A stretch of 23,553 nucleotides of DNA from a virus, in IMG/VR virus record IMGVR_UViG_3300036817_000262, positions 1 through 23,553 of that record. One strand, given 5' to 3'. Positions 14,487-22,384 of this stretch are shown here, one piece after another. The stretch's first letter is position 1. Each line of letters starts with the position of its first letter. The notes under the pieces were generated by a model that was not told where the DNA came from, ran no database searches, and saw only the letters and a list, made by a program, of their open reading frames with translations. A program made the position numbers and the translations under genes.

Positions 14487-16385
14487 ATGACGACTGCATT
14501 CCTCGCACCCACCGCTAAATTCAAGGCGTTTGGGAACGATGGTGCGCCTCTGGTGGGTGGTCAATTGTTCACGTATGGCGCGATGACCTCGACGCCGATC
14601 GCGACCTGGACTGATGCGGGCGCGGGCACACCGAATGCGAATCCAATCATCTTGGACTCGCGTGGTGAAGCGAATCTCTGGATCCTGCCGAACACGGGAT
14701 ACAAGTTCGTTCTGCAGGATGCCGTCGGCAACGTCATCTGGACTACCGACAACATCTTCAACTCGCAGCTCCTCACGTTGTTCGGTGGTGTCGATAGTGG
14801 TGCGGCGAATGCGTACGTCCTGAACTTCAACACACCCTACGATCACTACACCGACGGTGAAGTGATCTTCTTCATTCCGAGTTCCACCAACACAGCGACT
14901 CCCGCACCGACGTTGAACGTCAACGGGCTGGGTCCGATCCCGATCGTCAACATCGACGGCAGTGCGGTGGGTGCCGGTCAGATCCAGAAGAACCAGACCA
15001 CCCAGGTGATGTACTTCAACGGGGTGTTCCAACTCATCTCGATTGGATCGATCACCGGCAGCACGATCGGCACATTCGGCAAGGAAGTGGCGATCGCGTC
15101 CGCTGCCACCACAGATCTTGGCAGTCTGCTTGCGCATGTCGGATTGGTCACCGGCACCACCACCATCACGAGTCTCGGCAATTCGGCGAACCTCTCTGCG
15201 CCAATCTACATGATTCGTTTTGCCTCCTCGCTGATCCTCACGTACAACGCGACCTCATTGCAGTTACCGACGAATGCCAACATCGTCACGCAGCCGGGAG
15301 ATGCGGCGATAGCGCAATTTCTGGGCAACGGTAACTGGAAGGTGAACTTCTACCAGACGAGTGCGGGCGGTGCGCTGACCAACGTCAAGATCAAGCCGAG
15401 TGATACCGCGATCAGCGCCAGCACGACCCTCACGCCGGATCCCGACTTGCAGAGCAATACGCTGCTCGTCGGTCGCTACAACTATGAACTCTTCCTGATC
15501 TTCGACTCCGTGTTGCCAGCGGCGGGATTCAAGTTCACGAAGACCGGCGGTGCGGTGGATTCCCGGGGCGTCGCACCGGCACTCGCCTCAGGTTTCATCA
15601 ACGGTGCAGCTTACGTCAAGACCGATCCCTTCTACGGCATCACGGTGAGCTATACGACGGTCTCATCCGCTGCCAATAGCAACACTGCGCTCTACACCGG
15701 ATCGCTGCTCGTATCGACTCCTGGGACGTTTGGCATTAGCTGGGCACAAGTGGCATCGGATCCAGGGGCGACGACCTTGCGCGCCGGGAGTTATCTCGCA
15801 GTGAACCTGCTCACCACCGGCACGACGGCATCGACGGTCTTGCGGATCTACAGCACTGCGGGCAGTGGCACCGAGACCGTTCCTGCGGGTTACACGACGG
15901 TGACGATCGAGATATTCGGCGGATCCGGCAACGGTGGATCGGGCAACACCAACTTCACCGATCTCTTAGGAGGAGGCGGCGGCGGATCCGGCGGGTATGC
16001 GATGTCGCAGTACAGTGTCGGAGGCCTCGGGGGCCGCACCATGGCTTATAGCGTGGGAGGTGTGAATGGAGCTTCTACCGTTTCGAGTGGCACCCTGACC
16101 ATCACCACCATGACTGCGACTGGCGGACTCAACGGTGGCAACGCGACGCCTCTGGTAGGAGGCGCGTCAGGTCCTCCCGGCAACGGATCGGGCGGCACCG
16201 TGACGAATATCGCGGGCAATGCCGGGGGCATCGGTGGAGGTCGCCCGTTTGGTTTCCCGGGCGCAGGGGGCGCAGGCGTCGCGGGGGTCAATGGTGGCGG
16301 CACAACCGGCGGCGGCGGCATTGCGGGTCCTGGATCCGGCTTCCCGGGCAATCCCGGTGTCGTCATCTTCAAGTACACCCCATGA
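14487..16385 (+). CDS. Tail protein: podophage adaptor domain plus glycine-rich C-terminus
   Basis: This is a 632-residue protein. Residues about 10-95 form the N-terminal adaptor common in podophage tail proteins (FKAFGNDGAPLVGGQLFTY, STPIATWTDAG, NPIILDSRGEANLWI, YKFVLQDAVGNVIW, DNI). The following 300 residues are beta-rich with fibre-like repeats (TPAPTLNVNGLGP, ITGSTIGTFGKE, TTDLGSLLAHVGLVTGTTTI). From about residue 450 there is VLRIYSTAGSGTETVPAG..TVTIEIFGGSGNGG, the entry to a glycine-rich domain that runs to the end (VVIFKYTP), like that of the protein at 4085-5158. The likely role is an adhesin or fibre attached to the virion neck or tail. The gene starts immediately after the previous stop and overlaps the next start (ATGA). 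No chaperone or peptidase end domain is visible. Confidence 0.8.
   Translation: MTTAFLAPTAKFKAFGNDGAPLVGGQLFTYGAMTSTPIATWTDAGAGTPNANPIILDSRGEANLWILPNTGYKFVLQDAVGNVIWTTDNIFNSQLLTLFGGVDSGAANAYVLNFNTPYDHYTDGEVIFFIPSSTNTATPAPTLNVNGLGPIPIVNIDGSAVGAGQIQKNQTTQVMYFNGVFQLISIGSITGSTIGTFGKEVAIASAATTDLGSLLAHVGLVTGTTTITSLGNSANLSAPIYMIRFASSLILTYNATSLQLPTNANIVTQPGDAAIAQFLGNGNWKVNFYQTSAGGALTNVKIKPSDTAISASTTLTPDPDLQSNTLLVGRYNYELFLIFDSVLPAAGFKFTKTGGAVDSRGVAPALASGFINGAAYVKTDPFYGITVSYTTVSSAANSNTALYTGSLLVSTPGTFGISWAQVASDPGATTLRAGSYLAVNLLTTGTTASTVLRIYSTAGSGTETVPAGYTTVTIEIFGGSGNGGSGNTNFTDLLGGGGGGSGGYAMSQYSVGGLGGRTMAYSVGGVNGASTVSSGTLTITTMTATGGLNGGNATPLVGGASGPPGNGSGGTVTNIAGNAGGIGGGRPFGFPGAGGAGVAGVNGGGTTGGGGIAGPGSGFPGNPGVVIFKYTP
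14712..14731 (+). repeat. 20-bp perfect direct repeat, copy 1 (in adaptor of first tail gene)
   Basis: This block encodes LQDAVGN and is identical over 20 bases to 16604-16623 in the second tail gene, same orientation, about 1.9 kb apart. The flanking adaptor DNA is only partly alike, so this is the best-conserved core of the duplicated adaptor domain. Confidence 0.85.
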
Positions 16386-18529
16386 GTGCAGCACTCTCAC
16401 CCTGTCCCCTGTTTCGCGGCGTCGCGAACGATGGCAGCGCACTCGTCGGCGGGAAGCTGTCGACGTTCATCGCGGGCACTTCGACGCCGCAGGCGACCTA
16501 TGTGGACTCGACGCAGACCACACCGAACACCAACCCGGTGATTTTGAACGCTCGCGGCGAAGCACCCGTGTGGCTCGATCCCACCAAGACGTATCGGTAC
16601 CTGCTGCAGGATGCCGTCGGCAATCAGATCTGGTCCGTCGATAACATCGCGAATCCTCAAGCGGTCGTGTTCTATCCGCAAACGCCTGCGGAAGCGAACG
16701 CGGGGGTGACCCCTGCGAGCTTCAATTATCCGCCGGGAGATGTGCGCCGCTATGGTGGCGTGCTGGATGGCTCGACCGACTGCGTCGCTGCGATGGTCCA
16801 GGCCTGCAGTGTCGGACAACCCGTCACCATTCCCGGCAACATGGCACTCGCCAGCGCATCGCTCGCAGCACTCACCAACAAAGCCATCACGCTCGTGAGT
16901 GGCACGACGATCCAGAGTTACTCCGCGTACACCACCACCGTCACTGGCACGACACCGTGCAATGTGTTCTGGTGCATCAACGCGAGCAACGTCAGGTTTC
17001 TCCCAGGCTTTGTGTGCGTGGGCAATGGCTCGAGTTCGGCAACGTCATCGACGGGATTCTTCTGGTATCTGCAGGGCACGGCTGCGCAGGCAACGGATTT
17101 CGGCGACTGCGGTTACGATGGGATCACGCTCAAGAATTTCGCGGGCTTGTACTGGATCTACGTCGACAACTTGAATGCGACGAGCGCTGCGTACGTGCGC
17201 TTTCGCGGCGGCAACGGCACGTTCATCTCGCAGCCGGGGAATTGCCAGACCGCAGGCTTGACCACCATCACGACGACCGCATCGGTGTTCGGCTTCTCAG
17301 GATCCGACACCAACCTGTCGATCTATACCTTGAAGGATGTGGAGCTGTTCAACAACGTCGCATTCGGCAACTACATCAAGAATTTTGTTTACTTTTGGGC
17401 CGGGTGTCTGCGCTGCAAGGCATACAGCAACATACTCATCGGCTTTGGCACCGATCCCAGTATCAGCGATGACACGGGCTGCTATGCGCTGTCGACCTAT
17501 AATCATGGTCACATCCCCGGATTACCGCAGCCGCAGGAGATCGAGTTCTACGACAATACGATTGATAGCGTGCGTGATGCTGGTATTTACTGTGCGTCCG
17601 CGAATGTGCTCACTATCCAGAACAATCGCTTTCAAGGGCAAACGAGCACCGCCACCACGCTACTGCCGAAAGGCGCAATCTGTTTTGCGGGCAGTAACGA
17701 TGTCACCTGCGTGGGCAACAAGATGGTGAATTGCGCGATCGGTATTTACGCGACTCAAGACCCCACGTCGCTGCGCTTTGACATACGGAATACTTCGATC
17801 AGTCAAGTTCCCGCGAATGGTACAGGTATGTGGATCTCCGGGACGACGGGTGGTCCTGCCACTAACATCAACGTCGATGGCATCGATATCCTTAGCAGCA
17901 ATACCACCTCGCGTGGCATTCACATCAGTATGACCTCAGCGGTGGGCATCAATAACTTGAGCATCCAGAATTTCAGCATCACGGGCGGCGGCACCGCGTT
18001 TGATTTGTTCGCTCCCGATGCGTCGGTCCCTGCGATGGGTAATGTTCGCATCGGACAGGGCCGCATCCGCAGAGCCACCAATAACAATTTGCAGTGGCTC
18101 AACTGCACCAACCCCAACAGCCGTTCGACGTTCGAGAATATTGACTTCATGGACATGCAACCGGGGGCAGTCGGTTTCTACTTCGTCAATTGCGTGAACA
18201 TCACGATTCGAAACCTGACCTTCTACGACATGACCTCGGGAGCCACCTTCTGCTGGTATGGCTCCGGTGCGCAGGGCCGCGTCATGGGGGTGCAGTACGT
18301 CAATGTCGGCGGCGCGAACCGCTTCAGCGGCGCAGGCACGGAACTGGGGGTCAATGCTCCCGGCTGGACCGGTGCCACTAATGATTTTGTGCAGGACTTA
18401 AATCCCATCCTGTTGACACAAACCATCACCGGCAGCGGCGGCACCGACAGCTATACCTACACGCGCTCCGGGTGGGTGTGGGATCGATTCAATTCCCTGT
18501 GGCGTGAATCGCGGGGGCTGATCGTCTGA
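16382..18529 (+). CDS. Tailspike: adaptor domain plus parallel beta-helix, putative depolymerase
   Basis: This is a 715-residue protein. Residues about 8-95 repeat the adaptor of the previous gene (FRGVANDGSALVGGKLSTF, STPQATYVDS, NPVILNARGEAPVWL, YRYLLQDAVGNQIW, DNI). At 117-138, PPGDVRRYGGVLDGSTDCVAAM is the usual entry of pectate-lyase-like right-handed beta-helix tailspikes (GD-V-yGg-DG-tD). From about 150 to 620 there is repetitive N/T/G/I beta-strand sequence with helix rungs (EIEFYDNTIDSV, IYCASANVLTIQNNRFQG, VTCVGNKMVNCAIGIYA, NVDGIDILSSNTT, NNLSIQNFSITGGG). Such spikes bind and cut surface polysaccharides; the catalytic residues cannot be picked by eye. The C-terminal about 60 residues (LTQTITGSGGTDSYTYTRSG, ending in W-rich sequence) may be a trimerisation part. 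It is the last late gene and meets csrA tail-to-tail with no gap. Confidence 0.85.
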   Translation: MSAALSPCPLFRGVANDGSALVGGKLSTFIAGTSTPQATYVDSTQTTPNTNPVILNARGEAPVWLDPTKTYRYLLQDAVGNQIWSVDNIANPQAVVFYPQTPAEANAGVTPASFNYPPGDVRRYGGVLDGSTDCVAAMVQACSVGQPVTIPGNMALASASLAALTNKAITLVSGTTIQSYSAYTTTVTGTTPCNVFWCINASNVRFLPGFVCVGNGSSSATSSTGFFWYLQGTAAQATDFGDCGYDGITLKNFAGLYWIYVDNLNATSAAYVRFRGGNGTFISQPGNCQTAGLTTITTTASVFGFSGSDTNLSIYTLKDVELFNNVAFGNYIKNFVYFWAGCLRCKAYSNILIGFGTDPSISDDTGCYALSTYNHGHIPGLPQPQEIEFYDNTIDSVRDAGIYCASANVLTIQNNRFQGQTSTATTLLPKGAICFAGSNDVTCVGNKMVNCAIGIYATQDPTSLRFDIRNTSISQVPANGTGMWISGTTGGPATNINVDGIDILSSNTTSRGIHISMTSAVGINNLSIQNFSITGGGTAFDLFAPDASVPAMGNVRIGQGRIRRATNNNLQWLNCTNPNSRSTFENIDFMDMQPGAVGFYFVNCVNITIRNLTFYDMTSGATFCWYGSGAQGRVMGVQYVNVGGANRFSGAGTELGVNAPGWTGATNDFVQDLNPILLTQTITGSGGTDSYTYTRSGWVWDRFNSLWRESRGLIV
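16604..16623 (+). repeat. 20-bp perfect direct repeat, copy 2 (in adaptor of tailspike gene)
   Basis: This is the second copy of the identical 20-base block at 14712-14731, encoding the same LQDAVGN core. Recombination between the two copies would delete or swap the C-terminal part of the first tail protein while keeping the adaptor. Confidence 0.85.
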
Positions 18530-18712
18530 TCAAGTTTCTGGTTCGTTCTCTTGATTCTTGATTTTGAGGTAGATCTCTTCACGATGCACAGTGACATCGC
18601 GTGGCGCTTCGACGCCAAGTCGAACCTGTGAGCCGTGCACACCTAGAACAACCACCTTGATGTCGTTACCTATGATCACGGTCTCACCCACTCGTCGTGT
18701 CAGTATCAACAT
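18530..18712 (-). CDS. csrA: CsrA-family RNA-binding translational regulator (phage-encoded)
   Basis: This 60-residue protein begins [15 protein letters not shown] and continues [20 protein letters not shown] then HREEIY, a full-length CsrA/RsmA match. The RNA-contact residues L4, R6, V42 and R44 of E. coli CsrA are all present. CsrA homodimers bind GGA motifs in mRNA leaders and usually block or stabilise translation of metabolism, biofilm and motility genes. The C-terminal tail after Y48 is short and charged. The gene has a near-perfect AAGGAGGT ribosome site 3 bases before the ATG, starts 15 bp after the triple-HTH gene, and its stop directly abuts the tailspike stop on the other strand. 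Carriage by a phage suggests control of host or phage mRNAs; which ones cannot be seen here. Confidence 0.95.
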
Positions 18713-18743
18713 ACGACCTCCTTGGAATTAACCTCCAGTCAAC
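18713..18743 (-). promoter_or_regulatory. csrA leader with two GGAGG elements, candidate CsrA autoregulation site
   Basis: On the - strand the csrA leader reads ...TGGAGG, about 10 bases, CAAGGAGG, TCGT, ATG start. The proximal element is both the Shine-Dalgarno and a match to the CsrA core pattern CANGGANG. The distal GGAGG lies in the last codons and stop of the upstream gene. Two GGA sites about 15 bases apart are within the range a CsrA dimer can bridge. TGGA and TCCA could also pair around the distal site. Confidence 0.5.
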
Positions 18744-19525
18744 GTGCGCAAGGCCTGCAGCACGAGCAAGTGCTGCTCTTCAAACCGTTTGATCTTACCC
18801 TCCTGCAGATCCCCATACATCGCACTCTCCGCATGCTTCAAGAGCGCCACTGCATCGCGCATGCGGATGGAGAGAACCGGCGCAGTCTCTTCAACATTGT
18901 GATGTCGCGCTAATCCTCCCTTACGCCCTGCCGCCACTAGCTGCCTGCGTCGCTTAGCAGCTTTGCTAGTCCAGTTGTAAATATTGGAGACATTGATCTT
19001 CAGATCCTTGGCAATGTCCTTTGCCAACTCGCCTGCTTCGAATCGTTCTATTGCCGCCTCTTTGAATCGATCCGTGATGCTTGGTTTTTTGGCAGGCATT
19101 TTTTTGTGCGAACGTTTCTTCGACATGAGTTCCTTCTTCTTGGTGGGATGAGTGTTGGGAGTGCCTCTGAGAGCATTTTTTTGCCACTGATACAGCATGC
19201 TGTTGCTGATTTTGAATTCTCGCGCGAGAGCCATGGCAGTCTCTCCCGCTTGCATGCGACGCACGACTTCCTGCTTGAACGCTGTGGAGTACACGCGGGT
19301 GCCTTTAGGTCCCATGACGAAACCCGTCTCTGGAATCTCTGTCTTCAGATCGCGACCCCGTACCCAGGAGCGAATGTGGGTCGCGTGTGCACCCGTCTCT
19401 TGAGCGAGAGCTGTTGCGGTCTCCCCTTTCTTGATGCGCTCAATGATCCTTAACTTGAAAGCGTGCGAATATTTTCGCTTACCCTGTGGTGTTAGCGTTA
19501 CGCCGTCTGGCAACGGGTTTGGCAT
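18728..19525 (-). CDS. Protein with three tandem transposase-type helix-turn-helix domains
   Basis: This is a 265-residue basic protein. Three homologous HTH units of the IS3/IS911 OrfA (homeodomain-like) type start at about residues 18, 78 and 149. Each has a conserved F, a GE(T/L)A turn, a helix A.(A/D)(L/I)A, and a final W. The F-W distance is exactly 31 in all three (F23-W54, F83-W114, F154-W185). Units 1 and 2 are exactly 60 residues apart. A lysine-rich linker (about 128-148) precedes unit 3. The C-terminal 80 residues include a basic RRRQLVAAGRKGG segment and a predicted helix. There is no DDE catalytic domain, so this is not a transposase but probably a multi-site DNA-binding regulator. 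GAGGA precedes the ATG. The gene overlaps the zinc-ribbon gene by 47 bp and precedes csrA. Confidence 0.78.
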   Translation of the reverse strand: MPNPLPDGVTLTPQGKRKYSHAFKLRIIERIKKGETATALAQETGAHATHIRSWVRGRDLKTEIPETGFVMGPKGTRVYSTAFKQEVVRRMQAGETAMALAREFKISNSMLYQWQKNALRGTPNTHPTKKKELMSKKRSHKKMPAKKPSITDRFKEAAIERFEAGELAKDIAKDLKINVSNIYNWTSKAAKRRRQLVAAGRKGGLARHHNVEETAPVLSIRMRDAVALLKHAESAMYGDLQEGKIKRFEEQHLLVLQALRTLTGG

Positions 19526-19766
19526 ATGCGGTCCTCATAGTTTTTTCACGTTTTGCTTTTCGATACGCAGGCAGCTCTTGATCCTCATGACGCTCCTCGA
19601 TGTGCGCGATTCGGAACAATCCTTTCTCGCGCCGATAGCGGGCCTCAATGATTTCGGCGGGCGTTTTTTGGTCCCAGTAGTACATCGCGTGGCGGCACTT
19701 GATGCAGTACTTGCGGCGGGAATTGACAGTCAATGTTTCGGTGCACCTGAACGTTGGGCACTTCAT
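19479..19766 (-). CDS. Small zinc-ribbon-like protein, first gene of the csrA operon
   Basis: This is a 95-residue basic protein. The N-terminal part has cysteines C3 and C8, then C21-x2-C24 (YCIKCRHAMYYW), a plausible four-cysteine zinc site. The rest is rich in R, K and E, with a REKGLFRIAHIEERHED helix and a very basic C-terminus. No named family is recognised; it could be a small nucleic-acid-binding protein or regulator. It has the strongest ribosome site in this operon (AAGGAGGAGGACCG before the ATG), which also contains three consecutive GGA triplets and may be a CsrA target. Its 3' end overlaps the HTH gene by 47 bp in another frame. Confidence 0.68.
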   Translation of the reverse strand: MKCPTFRCTETLTVNSRRKYCIKCRHAMYYWDQKTPAEIIEARYRREKGLFRIAHIEERHEDQELPAYRKAKREKTMRTAYAKPVARRRNANTTG

Positions 19767-19808
19767 CGGTCCTCCTCCTTACTTGTTGAAGATTCAAGGC
19801 AGCTTACT

Positions 19809-19820
19809 CTCGAATTCGAG
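19809..19820. promoter_or_regulatory. 12-bp perfect palindrome, operator candidate (leftward)
   Basis: CTCGAATTCGAG is a perfect 12-base palindrome. It sits in the spacer of the weak leftward promoter candidate, about 45 bases upstream of the zinc-ribbon start. A second, smaller inverted repeat (TTGAA-GA-TTCAA, 19786-19797) follows downstream. It could be a repressor site for the csrA operon. Confidence 0.4.
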
Positions 19821-19833
19821 CGGTTCAACCGTC

Positions 19834-19871
19834 GAATGTGATTGAATGTGACTTCCAGGCAAATCATGTGA
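19834..19871 (+). repeat. Helically phased short direct repeats (GAATGTGA and ATGTGA)
   Basis: GAATGTGA occurs at 19834-19841 and again at 19844-19851, a 10-bp period. The ATGTGA core recurs at 19866-19871, a further 20 bp on. All three would face the same side of the helix. They could be arm-type integrase or excisionase sites or regulator boxes. Confidence 0.5.
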
Positions 19872-19886
19872 ACCATTTGTTACCAA
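19872..19886 (+). repeat. 15-bp direct repeat, copy 1 (ACCATTTGTTACCAA)
   Basis: This is identical to 20056-20070, 184 bp apart, in the gene-free region just upstream of the integrase. It may be an integrase arm site, a regulator box or an att-related core. It abuts the third ATGTGA element. Confidence 0.8.
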
Positions 19887-19953
19887 GGGCACCCACAAGT
19901 GATTGATTTAAAAGGTAGTTTTTTCTCCTCTTGTTCAAGCCAGATGTCTGATT

Positions 19954-19972
19954 TACCATGTACATCATGGTA
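19954..19972. promoter_or_regulatory. 7-bp inverted repeat with 5-bp spacer, operator candidate (rightward)
   Basis: TACCATG (19954-19960) and CATGGTA (19966-19972) form a perfect inverted repeat around TACAT. It coincides with the -10 of the weak rightward promoter candidate, so a dimeric repressor bound here could control the integrase. The half-site TACCA also appears in the 15-bp direct repeats nearby. Confidence 0.5.
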
Positions 19973-20055
19973 CTTAGTGTGAAAGACCCAGAAATCGTGT
20001 GGCAAGCAAAGGCTTATTTTCCTAGGGTTTCGTTACACTGCCATTTTCGCTTGAT

Positions 20056-20070
20056 ACCATTTGTTACCAA
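20056..20070 (+). repeat. 15-bp direct repeat, copy 2 (ACCATTTGTTACCAA)
   Basis: This is the second copy of the element at 19872-19886, ending 24 bases before the integrase ATG and just upstream of its ribosome site. A protein bound here could directly limit integrase expression. Confidence 0.8.
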
Positions 20071-20094
20071 CGTCGATTTTGAGGAGTACAAAAA

Positions 20095-21255
20095 ATGACC
20101 ATCGTTAAGCGGGGTAATTCTTTGCGCGTCGTCGTACGCGTCACTGGTCAAAAACCCGCCACCCGCACCTTCGCGAAAGATGAAAAGGCACAAGCGCTGC
20201 TCTGGGAAGAGGAGCAGAAGTTGCGGATGAATTCACGCAAGCAGTTTACCCGTGGAGTAACCCTCGGCATGCTCTGCCGTCGTTACCGCGACGAGGTCGA
20301 GAAGCCGGATCCCACTACCACCAAAGGTGAGATCGCGATGTCGAATCGTTTCGCGATCGACTTCGCCGAAACGGATCTGTCCGAGATGACGAAGAAGTGG
20401 TGGATGGACACCGTCGAGGGCTGGCACCACTTGAAGCCTTCCTCGCGCACTCGCTACATGTGGCGCATCAATGCCGTGCTGCGCGTCGCTGCCGAAAAAG
20501 AATGGAACAGTTGCAAAGTGGATTGGAAGAGTTTCTCCGAAGCGTACACAGCGCTCGAAAAAAAGGGAGCCATCGATGGTGGCGACCCGCGCGCACGTCG
20601 CGTCAGCCAAGTGGAACTCGATCTACTCAAGAATCGATACCGTGGCTCCTCCCCGCAACTGCTCGACATCATCGACTTTGCCGTGATCTTGGGATTGCGC
20701 CAGGGTGAGATCGCGAAGCTGACGTGGAGTGACATCAAGGATGCCGACACCGATGAGCCGATGCTCCTGGTCAAGAAGCGCAAGAACCCCAAGAAGAAGA
20801 TCACGGGTCTCGTGCCGCTGCTCGATGACTCGCTGCAGATCCTGCAGCGTCAACCGCGCCCGAAGGATCTGGTGTCCGATCAGCGCATCTTCCGCATGGA
20901 TGCGCAGCAGATCTACACCGCATTCCATGTGCTGGTCCGCACGCTGCAGGCCGAAGGCAAGTTGAGCAAAGCAGAAGAGGACGATCTGCGATTCCACGAT
21001 CTGCGTCACGAGGCACTGTCGCGTCTCTTCGAGCGAGGCTTCAGCATTCCCGAAGTGCAACTGGTGTCGGGACATAAGGAGTGGGAGAGTCTGAAAATCT
21101 ACACCAACTTGAAACCGAGTGGACTGCATCAGGGTCCGCTCGCGCATCAGCAGTTGATGAACGACGATCGGCAGCTTGAGAAGCTGCTTGAGAATCCGAA
21201 GCTGCGTGCGAAGTTGATTGTGCTGTTGAACTCGCAGGAGAAACGCGCAGCCTAA
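20095..21255 (+). CDS. int: Tyrosine recombinase (phage integrase)
   Basis: This is a 386-residue protein. Its N-terminal about 60 residues form a beta-rich arm-binding-type region (VKRGNSLRVVVRVTGQKPAT..F). The core-binding helical region (about 65-165) includes a KPSSRTRYMWRINAVLRVA segment. The catalytic domain has R202 (LGLRQGEI), H301-x-x-R304 (HDLRH), H327 (SGHKEW) and the nucleophile Y336 (KIYTNLKP), with K residues in the preceding beta-hairpin (LLVKKRKNPKKK). All the usual catalytic residues are therefore present. It carries out site-specific recombination between phage attP and host attB. GAGGAG lies before the ATG at 20095. It is divergent from the csrA operon, and its stop overlaps that of a HTH gene on the opposite strand. 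Confidence 0.95.
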   Translation: MTIVKRGNSLRVVVRVTGQKPATRTFAKDEKAQALLWEEEQKLRMNSRKQFTRGVTLGMLCRRYRDEVEKPDPTTTKGEIAMSNRFAIDFAETDLSEMTKKWWMDTVEGWHHLKPSSRTRYMWRINAVLRVAAEKEWNSCKVDWKSFSEAYTALEKKGAIDGGDPRARRVSQVELDLLKNRYRGSSPQLLDIIDFAVILGLRQGEIAKLTWSDIKDADTDEPMLLVKKRKNPKKKITGLVPLLDDSLQILQRQPRPKDLVSDQRIFRMDAQQIYTAFHVLVRTLQAEGKLSKAEEDDLRFHDLRHEALSRLFERGFSIPEVQLVSGHKEWESLKIYTNLKPSGLHQGPLAHQQLMNDDRQLEKLLENPKLRAKLIVLLNSQEKRAA

Positions 21256-21515
21256 GTTGAGCCGAGGGTGGCGGCGCGTCTGCGCCGCCGCCGATCCGGG
21301 CGCGGCGGTCCCGGGTTCGCCAGTTTCGCCATTCCCTCCTGCCGCCGATCCATAAAGTACTTGTCCATCACGTCACGATCGATGACGTGACTTTTCCCAA
21401 GCTTGTAGGTCGCCACCGGGAAGCGACCTTCGAGGATCGCATTCTTCGCGGACTCAAACGACATGCCAAACATCTTGCAGGCATCACGGAGTGAAATCCA
21501 AGGTTGAGTGTTCAT
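21252..21515 (-). CDS. Small helix-turn-helix DNA-binding protein, excisionase-like
   Basis: This is an 87-residue protein. Residues about 6-52 (WISLRDACKMFGMSFESAKNAI..GRFPVATYKLGKSHVIDRDVMDKYF) have the MerR/excisionase-like layout: helix-turn-helix followed by a wing ending in a HVID-type strand. The C-terminus is proline-rich then has six consecutive arginines. Being next to the integrase, it could be a recombination directionality factor (Xis), but it could equally be a regulator of the early genes. It converges with the integrase (stops overlap by 4 bp) and its start overlaps the ParB-like stop by one base (TGATG), so it is the last gene of the early leftward operon. Confidence 0.72.
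   Translation of the reverse strand: MNTQPWISLRDACKMFGMSFESAKNAILEGRFPVATYKLGKSHVIDRDVMDKYFMDRRQEGMAKLANPGPPRPDRRRRRRAATLGST
21270..21289. repeat. GC-rich perfect hairpin at the int / HTH convergent junction
   Basis: GGCGGCGC (21270-21277) and GCGCCGCC (21282-21289) form a perfect 8-bp stem with a 4-base loop, just past the integrase stop. It lies inside the arginine-run coding end of the HTH gene. No T-tract follows on either strand, so it is not a standard intrinsic terminator, but it could slow polymerase or protect mRNA 3' ends. Confidence 0.6.
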
Positions 21516-22384
21516 CAGTAGATCCTAATTTTCTGTTCATCGTCGGCGCGTATCGCGACGATGGTGCGCGTGCAGGGCTTGTTCAAATTGCGCCGTGCCC
21601 AGTTCCATCCCTTGATCACCATTCGCATGCGGATGGCGAGCGAGTACCTCGCCATCTTTTCCGCATCGCGGATGAAAGCGCTGCGCAGAATGTATTCAAC
21701 GTCAGACCGTATCAGCTCCTCGCCGCTGTACAAGCGGCGCATGAAGCGCTCTGCTTGTTCTTGATGTCGGCGCGAGAACATCTCATAGAGCGCGGTGCCG
21801 CAGCCCAATGACAACGGTCGCGACTCGGCAGGGAAGGATGCCAGGGTCTCGGCGCATTGCAGAAGGGATTTGTGCTTCTCGACGTAATCGATCACATCGG
21901 TGTTGGAGAGTTTGATCTTGCCGTGCATCACACCGAGATCGAAACGATGGCACCACTGCACGGCAGTCGCCGCAGCTTTGATGATGTACGCGGGCGAGTC
22001 ATGGAAGTACAGACAGAGCGCATCCGCACCCGTGCGTACCGCCCCGGTGTCGATCGTCTTGAAGGCTTCCGGGGTGATGCCGTACACCACCATCGATTCG
22101 ATCGGGATCCCAGCTTCGATGATCGCGAACAACCGGTGCTGACCATCCAAGATCTGCTCATTGTCCGCGATGACGATCGGCTGACCGTTCAACTGCCAGT
22201 TGCCGTTCTTGATTTCATCCGACAGGAACTCGATGTGCCGTTTGCGCAGCGGGCGATTGATCTTATTGCACTTGAGCCAGTTCGTCGCATCGGTGGGAGT
22301 GATCTTCATCACCTCGGCGACGATGTCCTTGTTGGTGCCGTAGATTTTCGCCGCATGCGGGAACTTGATGATTTTGGAATTCAT
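21515..22384 (-). CDS. ParB/DGQHR-type phage protein
   Basis: This is a 289-residue protein. Residues about 43-92 (NRPLRKRHIEFLSDEIKNGNW, NGQPIVIADNEQILDGQHRL) form a ParB/Srx-like N-terminal fold with the DGQHR signature at 80-84. This is followed by FKTIDTGAVRTGAD (108-121), an 'ID.G..R...D' element seen in many phage proteins of this type. The C-terminal part is helical with RH- and R-rich stretches and lacks an obvious DNA-binding HTH. Its role in phages is poorly defined; DNA binding or nucleotide-dependent regulation is possible. It lies in the early leftward block between a very small ORF (ATGA overlap) and the HTH gene. It should not be read as a partition protein, as no ParA gene is present in this window. 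Confidence 0.75.
   Translation of the reverse strand: MNSKIIKFPHAAKIYGTNKDIVAEVMKITPTDATNWLKCNKINRPLRKRHIEFLSDEIKNGNWQLNGQPIVIADNEQILDGQHRLFAIIEAGIPIESMVVYGITPEAFKTIDTGAVRTGADALCLYFHDSPAYIIKAAATAVQWCHRFDLGVMHGKIKLSNTDVIDYVEKHKSLLQCAETLASFPAESRPLSLGCGTALYEMFSRRHQEQAERFMRRLYSGEELIRSDVEYILRSAFIRDAEKMARYSLAIRMRMVIKGWNWARRNLNKPCTRTIVAIRADDEQKIRIY

Follow-up and report, generated by a model that had tools for sequence, protein, structure and literature searches.

A conserved operon of zinc-finger-like, HTH-array and csrA genes beside the integrase of a temperate podophage lineage

Genes for CsrA homologues have been catalogued in phages (PMC7366521), and in Lessievirus JC1 the gene has been called a moron (PMC9144972). 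The locus described here raises the question of whether a phage csrA that shares an operon with two other small genes, next to the integrase, is cargo or belongs to a regulatory unit. The window, meaning the whole stretch of DNA analysed, is a 23.5-kb fragment (23,553 nucleotides) of an IMG/VR viral record. Its rightward head and tail genes, among them those for the phrog_283 major head protein and phrog_578 head closure, end at 18529, where csrA directly adjoins the stop codon of the final tail gene. Between this last late gene and the integrase lies a leftward operon of a zinc-finger-like gene, a helix-turn-helix (HTH) array gene and csrA (Table 1). The open reading frames of this operon, the 47 bp overlap of its first two genes and the 15 bp gap before csrA were all confirmed as the first-pass annotation had described them. 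The strong ribosome sites that it reported are present at the zinc-finger-like gene and csrA, while that of the HTH gene is weaker. The two tail genes (14487-16385 and 16382-18529) stand in tandem and have the phrog_26190 anchor domain in common at their N-termini, an arrangement known from tandem receptor-binding proteins.

Table 1. Positions of the operon, its domains and the neighbouring elements in the window.
Feature	Position	Strand	Basis
Gene 1, small basic zinc-finger-like protein, 95 aa (P0003)	19479..19766	-	Open frame; AAGGAGGAGG ribosome site; 14 further records have homologues
C-x4-C-x12-C-x2-C motif of gene 1, residues 3-24	19695..19760	-	Four Cys invariant in aligned homologues
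Gene 2, HTH-array protein, 265 aa (P0002)	18728..19525	-	Three HTH_Tnp_1 stretches; AlphaFold2 model; homologues with 2, 3 or 6 units
HTH unit 1, residues 16-56	19358..19480	-	Unit profile; model helices 21-32, 37-44, 48-56
HTH unit 2, residues 76-117	19175..19300	-	Unit profile; model helices 81-92, 97-104, 108-120
HTH unit 3, residues 147-188	18962..19087	-	Unit profile; model helices 152-163, 168-175, 179-202
C-terminal helical tail domain of gene 2, about residues 216-265	18731..18880	-	Predicted helices 220-241, 250-263; kept in all arrays
Gene 3, csrA, 60 aa (P0001)	18530..18712	-	PF02599 E=1.1e-24; AAGGAGG ribosome site
Promoter-like TTGAAC-N16-TAAGCT before operon (inferred, weak)	19801..19828	-	TAAGCT recurs at matching place
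Probable attP region	19872..20070	.	Two exact copies of 15-nt ACCATTTGTTACCAA (19872-19886, 20056-20070) between integrase and operon
Tyrosine integrase	20095..21255	+	PF00589 E=1.2e-17; phrog_1 integrase E=5e-34; divergent from operon

The first gene encodes a basic protein (pI 10) in which C3, C8, C21 and C24 are invariant in the homologue alignment; a second group of homologues carries the variant motif C-x2-C-x13-C-x2-C. No family match was found among Pfam, PHROG and NCBIfam profiles, and comparison with solved structures gave no significant match. The protein had been described as zinc-ribbon-like; the AlphaFold2 model is mostly helical and of low confidence, so 'zinc-finger-like' is the safer name. 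In the 14 other records, its homologues immediately precede the HTH array. Phages more distantly related to the lineage (L124-L136) have a weakly matching zinc gene as well, but beside an XRE-like regulator in the array's place and without csrA. Since these relatives pair the zinc gene with another type of regulator, partnership of the zinc protein seems to extend to DNA-binding regulators in general.

The second gene was first seen as encoding a three-headed DNA binder, which fits the three units found here but is only one state of an array with two, three or six. The three HTH_Tnp_1 stretches (Pfam E=1.6e-20) agree with a unit profile and with the AlphaFold2 model, in which three trihelical units are joined by flexible linkers, the first two units are preceded by beta-hairpins and the C-terminus forms a helical hairpin. 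The pLDDT is about 80-89 within the units, and at a pTM of 0.32 the mutual arrangement of the units is not fixed by the model. Against solved and viral structures, the whole protein gave no structural match beyond single HTHs. Among relatives, most arrays have three units, while L116, L118 and L159 have two and L123 has six, with the C-terminal helical tail constant throughout. Units of three-unit arrays usually match units in the same position elsewhere (46, 51 and 56 of 72), meaning that the triplication is old. The recognition helices are well conserved among close relatives and within clades, whereas the linkers vary; the idea of hypervariable recognition helices was rejected, as these are among the better-conserved parts within clades. 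All arrays and all zinc proteins have a pI of at least 10. In L134 (5428-5982), the array's C-terminal tail is joined at its N-terminal side to a different domain, which is DNA-binding-like and looks like a winged helix; a ParB-like gene follows directly downstream. The best domain matches of gene 2 are transposase HTHs, and each unit resembles IS3 OrfA and IS66 TnpA by its HTH_Tnp_1 fold (by profile). However, the view that gene 2 is a decayed or incomplete IS3/IS66 TnpA-like transposase that came to rest next to csrA is hardly tenable and already contradicted, given an intact gene under purifying selection, tandem units in orthologous positions and the lack of a catalytic domain, with no match to a DDE domain in any cassette gene among Pfam, PHROG and NCBIfam profiles. 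Gene 2 further differs from these transposase proteins in its 2-6 units per protein, its conserved helical tail, the lack of a catalytic partner and its obligate zinc partner gene.

The identification of the third gene as csrA is secure. It scores 86.5 bits against PF02599 (cut-off 27), exceeds the cut-offs of NF002469 and TIGR00202 (NCBIfam), and matches the solved CsrA 2bti by phmmer (E=2.3e-20). Across the first seven cassettes, residues 1-8, V42, H43, R44, E46 and I47 do not vary, and solved CsrA has the same residues. The segments LILTRR and VHREEI (strands 1 and 5), which we take to be the RNA-binding surfaces, are intact in the window. Elsewhere, the CsrA of L123 has D at position 43, and the L118 gene (L118:9835-9960) is truncated after about 30 residues, without the second RNA-binding segment. 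An 88-aa phrog_8785 gene lies 3' of this truncated csrA, and in the 133-kb contig discussed below (L030) between the array and csrA. At the operon's own ribosome sites, no CsrA-type GGA hairpin was consistently placed. A survey of target hairpins at phage ribosome sites yielded a few candidates, and those in the SSB leader were set aside as lying inside the upstream coding sequence and not clearly conserved. In clade 2 (L041, L011, L085), two GGAG sites flank a GGCGC-N5-GCGCC hairpin in the leader of the zinc gene, an arrangement that could serve CsrA autoregulation. The end of csrA also overlaps the last convergent late gene tail-to-tail, by 4 nt in L002 (5384), L011 (6192) and L085 (4947) and by 20 nt in L041, and abuts it in the window; with such an overlap, each transcript would enter the other antisense.

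Relatives of the cassette were reached through searches with the zinc gene and csrA, and later with a ParB-like bait; a search with the single HTH protein sequence of the window found none. The zinc-gene search led to three contigs that share the order of all three genes. The cassette was also present in a 133-kb contig and in two podophage loci anchored on csrA, and L085 came from a further zinc search. As an unbiased test, the neighbouring ParB-like gene was used as bait, counting contigs of at least 60% identity that extended past the integrase. All 12 contigs reaching the spot contained the zinc gene and array, and five of them were new (L115, L116, L118, L121, L123). The phrog_5931 ParB-like protein itself (window 21515-22384) is 60-74% identical across the lineage. 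The final two viral scans added L159 alone and no other family. Altogether, the cassette occurs with the same gene order in 15 viral records, window included, with the zinc-finger-like gene directly upstream of the HTH gene in every one (15/15). One of the relatives, G001, is a circular 41-kb contig with 127-bp terminal repeats, across whose ends the cassette spans. A single temperate podophage lineage accounts for 14 of the 15 records, and the other is the 133-kb contig, which represents a different, myophage-like virus judging from its baseplate genes and integrases. Its presence there as well suggests that the cassette can move as a unit. Beyond these records, alignment searches of GTDB species genomes gave no match to the zinc gene and only an unrelated transposase-like match to the array, INPHARED held no relative of the array or zinc gene, and a zinc-gene search of PLSDB had no match.

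The homologues of the three genes thus co-occur elsewhere, and the linkage of the HTH protein with csrA that the first-pass annotation had proposed as a check holds in 13 of the 15 records, where an intact csrA lies downstream of the array; csrA is truncated in L118 and absent from L159, which retains the zinc gene and array as a pair. The zinc gene and HTH array are therefore the constant core of the cassette. The annotation's suggestion of accessory genes at a common cargo spot did not survive the bait search within the lineage, and the cassette is a core, co-inherited part of this lineage rather than sporadic cargo. That unrelated moron genes came to lie side by side by chance is likewise very improbable. 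In its favour, csrA in phages frequently stands alone amid differing neighbours, and PBR31, a related phage, has different genes at the cassette position. The co-occurrence contradicts this explanation, however, as the linkage persists down to about 30-40% array identity among linked relatives, in which the zinc and HTH genes overlap or nearly abut.

Selection on the three genes points the same way. Among close pairs, dN/dS is about 0.03-0.17, and at most 0.20, for the zinc gene, 0.08-0.27 for the array and 0-0.10 for CsrA (about 0-0.27 overall), and all three cassette genes are under purifying selection. With the gene order kept in 15 records and dN/dS well below 1, the operon is more than a chance arrangement, and the proposal of a conserved, co-inherited operon of predicted nucleic-acid-binding regulators in a temperate phage is upheld. 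Pairwise distances of the zinc gene correlate with those of the array (r=0.81), as do those of the array with the ParB-like protein (0.84), while CsrA distances follow the cassette less well (r 0.63-0.65).

The operon reads against the late genes, beside a probable attP. A promoter of its own is weakly supported: the TAAGCT of the promoter-like element is found at the matching place in L002, L003, L004 and G001, with the variant TATAAGCT in L115, and a consensus scan of the region found no promoter. GGTAAC/GTAACA words are enriched between the integrase and operon of several relatives, and the repeats in this region differ from phage to phage (ACCATTTGTTACCAA in window 19767-20094, GGGTAACA in L002:3585-3974, GTGTTACCA in L104:1040-1285). 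These repeats read like integrase arm sites, so attP is probably located there, and the operon would sit at one end of the prophage. No tRNA genes were found as an att site, and an Rfam search gave no match. The divergent arrangement with the integrase, across a common 328-bp region with repeats, could indicate integration control, with the array bound to the repeats and controlling either integrase expression or the direction in which recombination runs. This role is quite unlikely. In L121 the usual integrase is replaced by an unrelated P4-type integrase and the cassette is kept, which speaks against an integrase-tied function, and the cassette flanks examined in the myophage-like contig, roughly 6 kb, showed no integrase. 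Additionally, an excisionase-like gene is present separately, relatives with similar recognition helices have different repeats, and CsrA would be left unexplained. Nor is the array the lysogeny repressor, as G001 has its own XRE-type repressor and a Cro-like gene at a divergent locus elsewhere.

Counter-defence offers another explanation. In an operon of the anti-CRISPR/Aca type, gene 1 would be the inhibitor, the HTH protein an autorepressor of the operon promoter, and CsrA would lower the expression of host immunity such as CRISPR-Cas. A small gene of no known family followed by an HTH gene resembles the acr-aca order, and in clade 1 (L002, L003, L004) each genome has a single copy of a perfect palindrome, TGTGTGTATACACACA, located between the first ribosome site and the promoter-like element. 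Furthermore, RsmA represses CRISPR-Cas and has phage homologues, and phage RsmA has been proposed to act as an anti-CRISPR by lowering CRISPR-Cas expression (PMC8450108). The palindrome is confined to these three phages, however, being absent from the window and the other clade, and it was not found as an operator common to the repressor region. A PADLOC scan (2023 copy) gave generic HTH matches only, with no acr or aca family member, and the strong conservation and very basic character of the zinc gene contrast with fast-evolving inhibitors. Aca proteins are small single-HTH dimers, whereas the cassette encodes a multi-unit HTH protein, has no known Acr match and adds CsrA. Taken together, we consider an operon of this type unlikely.

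Of modest but better than even probability, in our judgement, is a phage regulatory operon that would act on DNA through the array and its zinc partner and on mRNA through CsrA, apart from the CI/Cro switch. What is established is the order of its genes, their co-inheritance and purifying selection, and their domain make-up; their functions are proposed from sequence and models. The operon would form a self-contained regulatory unit of three nucleic-acid-binding proteins, co-inherited in the podophage lineage, with a putative promoter of its own next to the probable attP and separate from the CI/Cro switch. Gene 2 would bind an extended DNA site through its transposase-type HTH units, three in this phage, with the helical tail as a predicted interaction domain; phage DNA and host DNA are equally possible as the target. 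Gene 1 would be its obligate small partner, presumably coupled to it in translation. CsrA would bind GGA motifs in mRNAs and alter their translation, adding a second, post-transcriptional layer. This RNA layer would not be indispensable, since csrA is lost or truncated in two of the 15 records, and it is made plausible by plasmid RsmQ, which re-programmes its Pseudomonas host by binding host mRNAs (PMC9928087), and by the proposed action of phage RsmA on CRISPR-Cas. The net effect would likely be an adjustment of host physiology, or of host defence, in lysogeny or early infection. A bolder form of this proposal, which we hold only tentatively, is a previously undescribed two-tier operon for host take-over or counter-defence, in which a modular array with 2-6 HTH units, together with its own zinc-finger partner, might read a long host or phage DNA site, and the co-expressed CsrA might seize the translation of host mRNAs.

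The first-pass annotation knew of no described system with this make-up. A literature search for the zinc/array pair or the three-gene cassette likewise found no description, although phage csrA by itself has been described (PMC7366521, PMC8450108, PMC9144972). The CsrA/RsmA homologues of Pseudomonas RsmM phages and of Lessievirus JC1 and its relatives resemble the present one as small genes of the same family, close to bacterial CsrA (PMC7366521, PMC9144972, PMC8450108). In Lessievirus JC1, however, csrA lies between head genes, and the other csrA-bearing viral loci inspected have varied neighbours, none with an HTH array, unlike the cassette. In one such phage contig (L052:3486-4957), a small CxxC-rich gene lies 3 nt upstream of csrA, and the opposite strand holds a zinc-like gene and then an XRE-like regulator. 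A zinc-finger-like gene followed by an XRE-like regulator, with no array or csrA, is also seen in distant relatives of the lineage at L125:7461-8534, L126:7402-8359 and L132:7562-8639. RsmQ of plasmid pQBR103 is likewise a CsrA/Rsm homologue that rewires the translation of its host from a mobile element, but it is plasmid-borne, and an array or zinc partner was not found described with it in the portion of that report drawn on here (PMC9928087). Phage-borne csrA alone is thus already known, and for the conserved zinc-finger-like/HTH-array/CsrA cassette no earlier counterpart was found. Reports of phage CsrA go back years without assigning it a function; here it has fixed partners and a fixed address across a whole phage lineage. 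This fixed cassette makes the targets of the array and CsrA and the timing of the operon testable, and HTH arrays that differ in unit number among relatives provide a natural test bed for modular DNA recognition.
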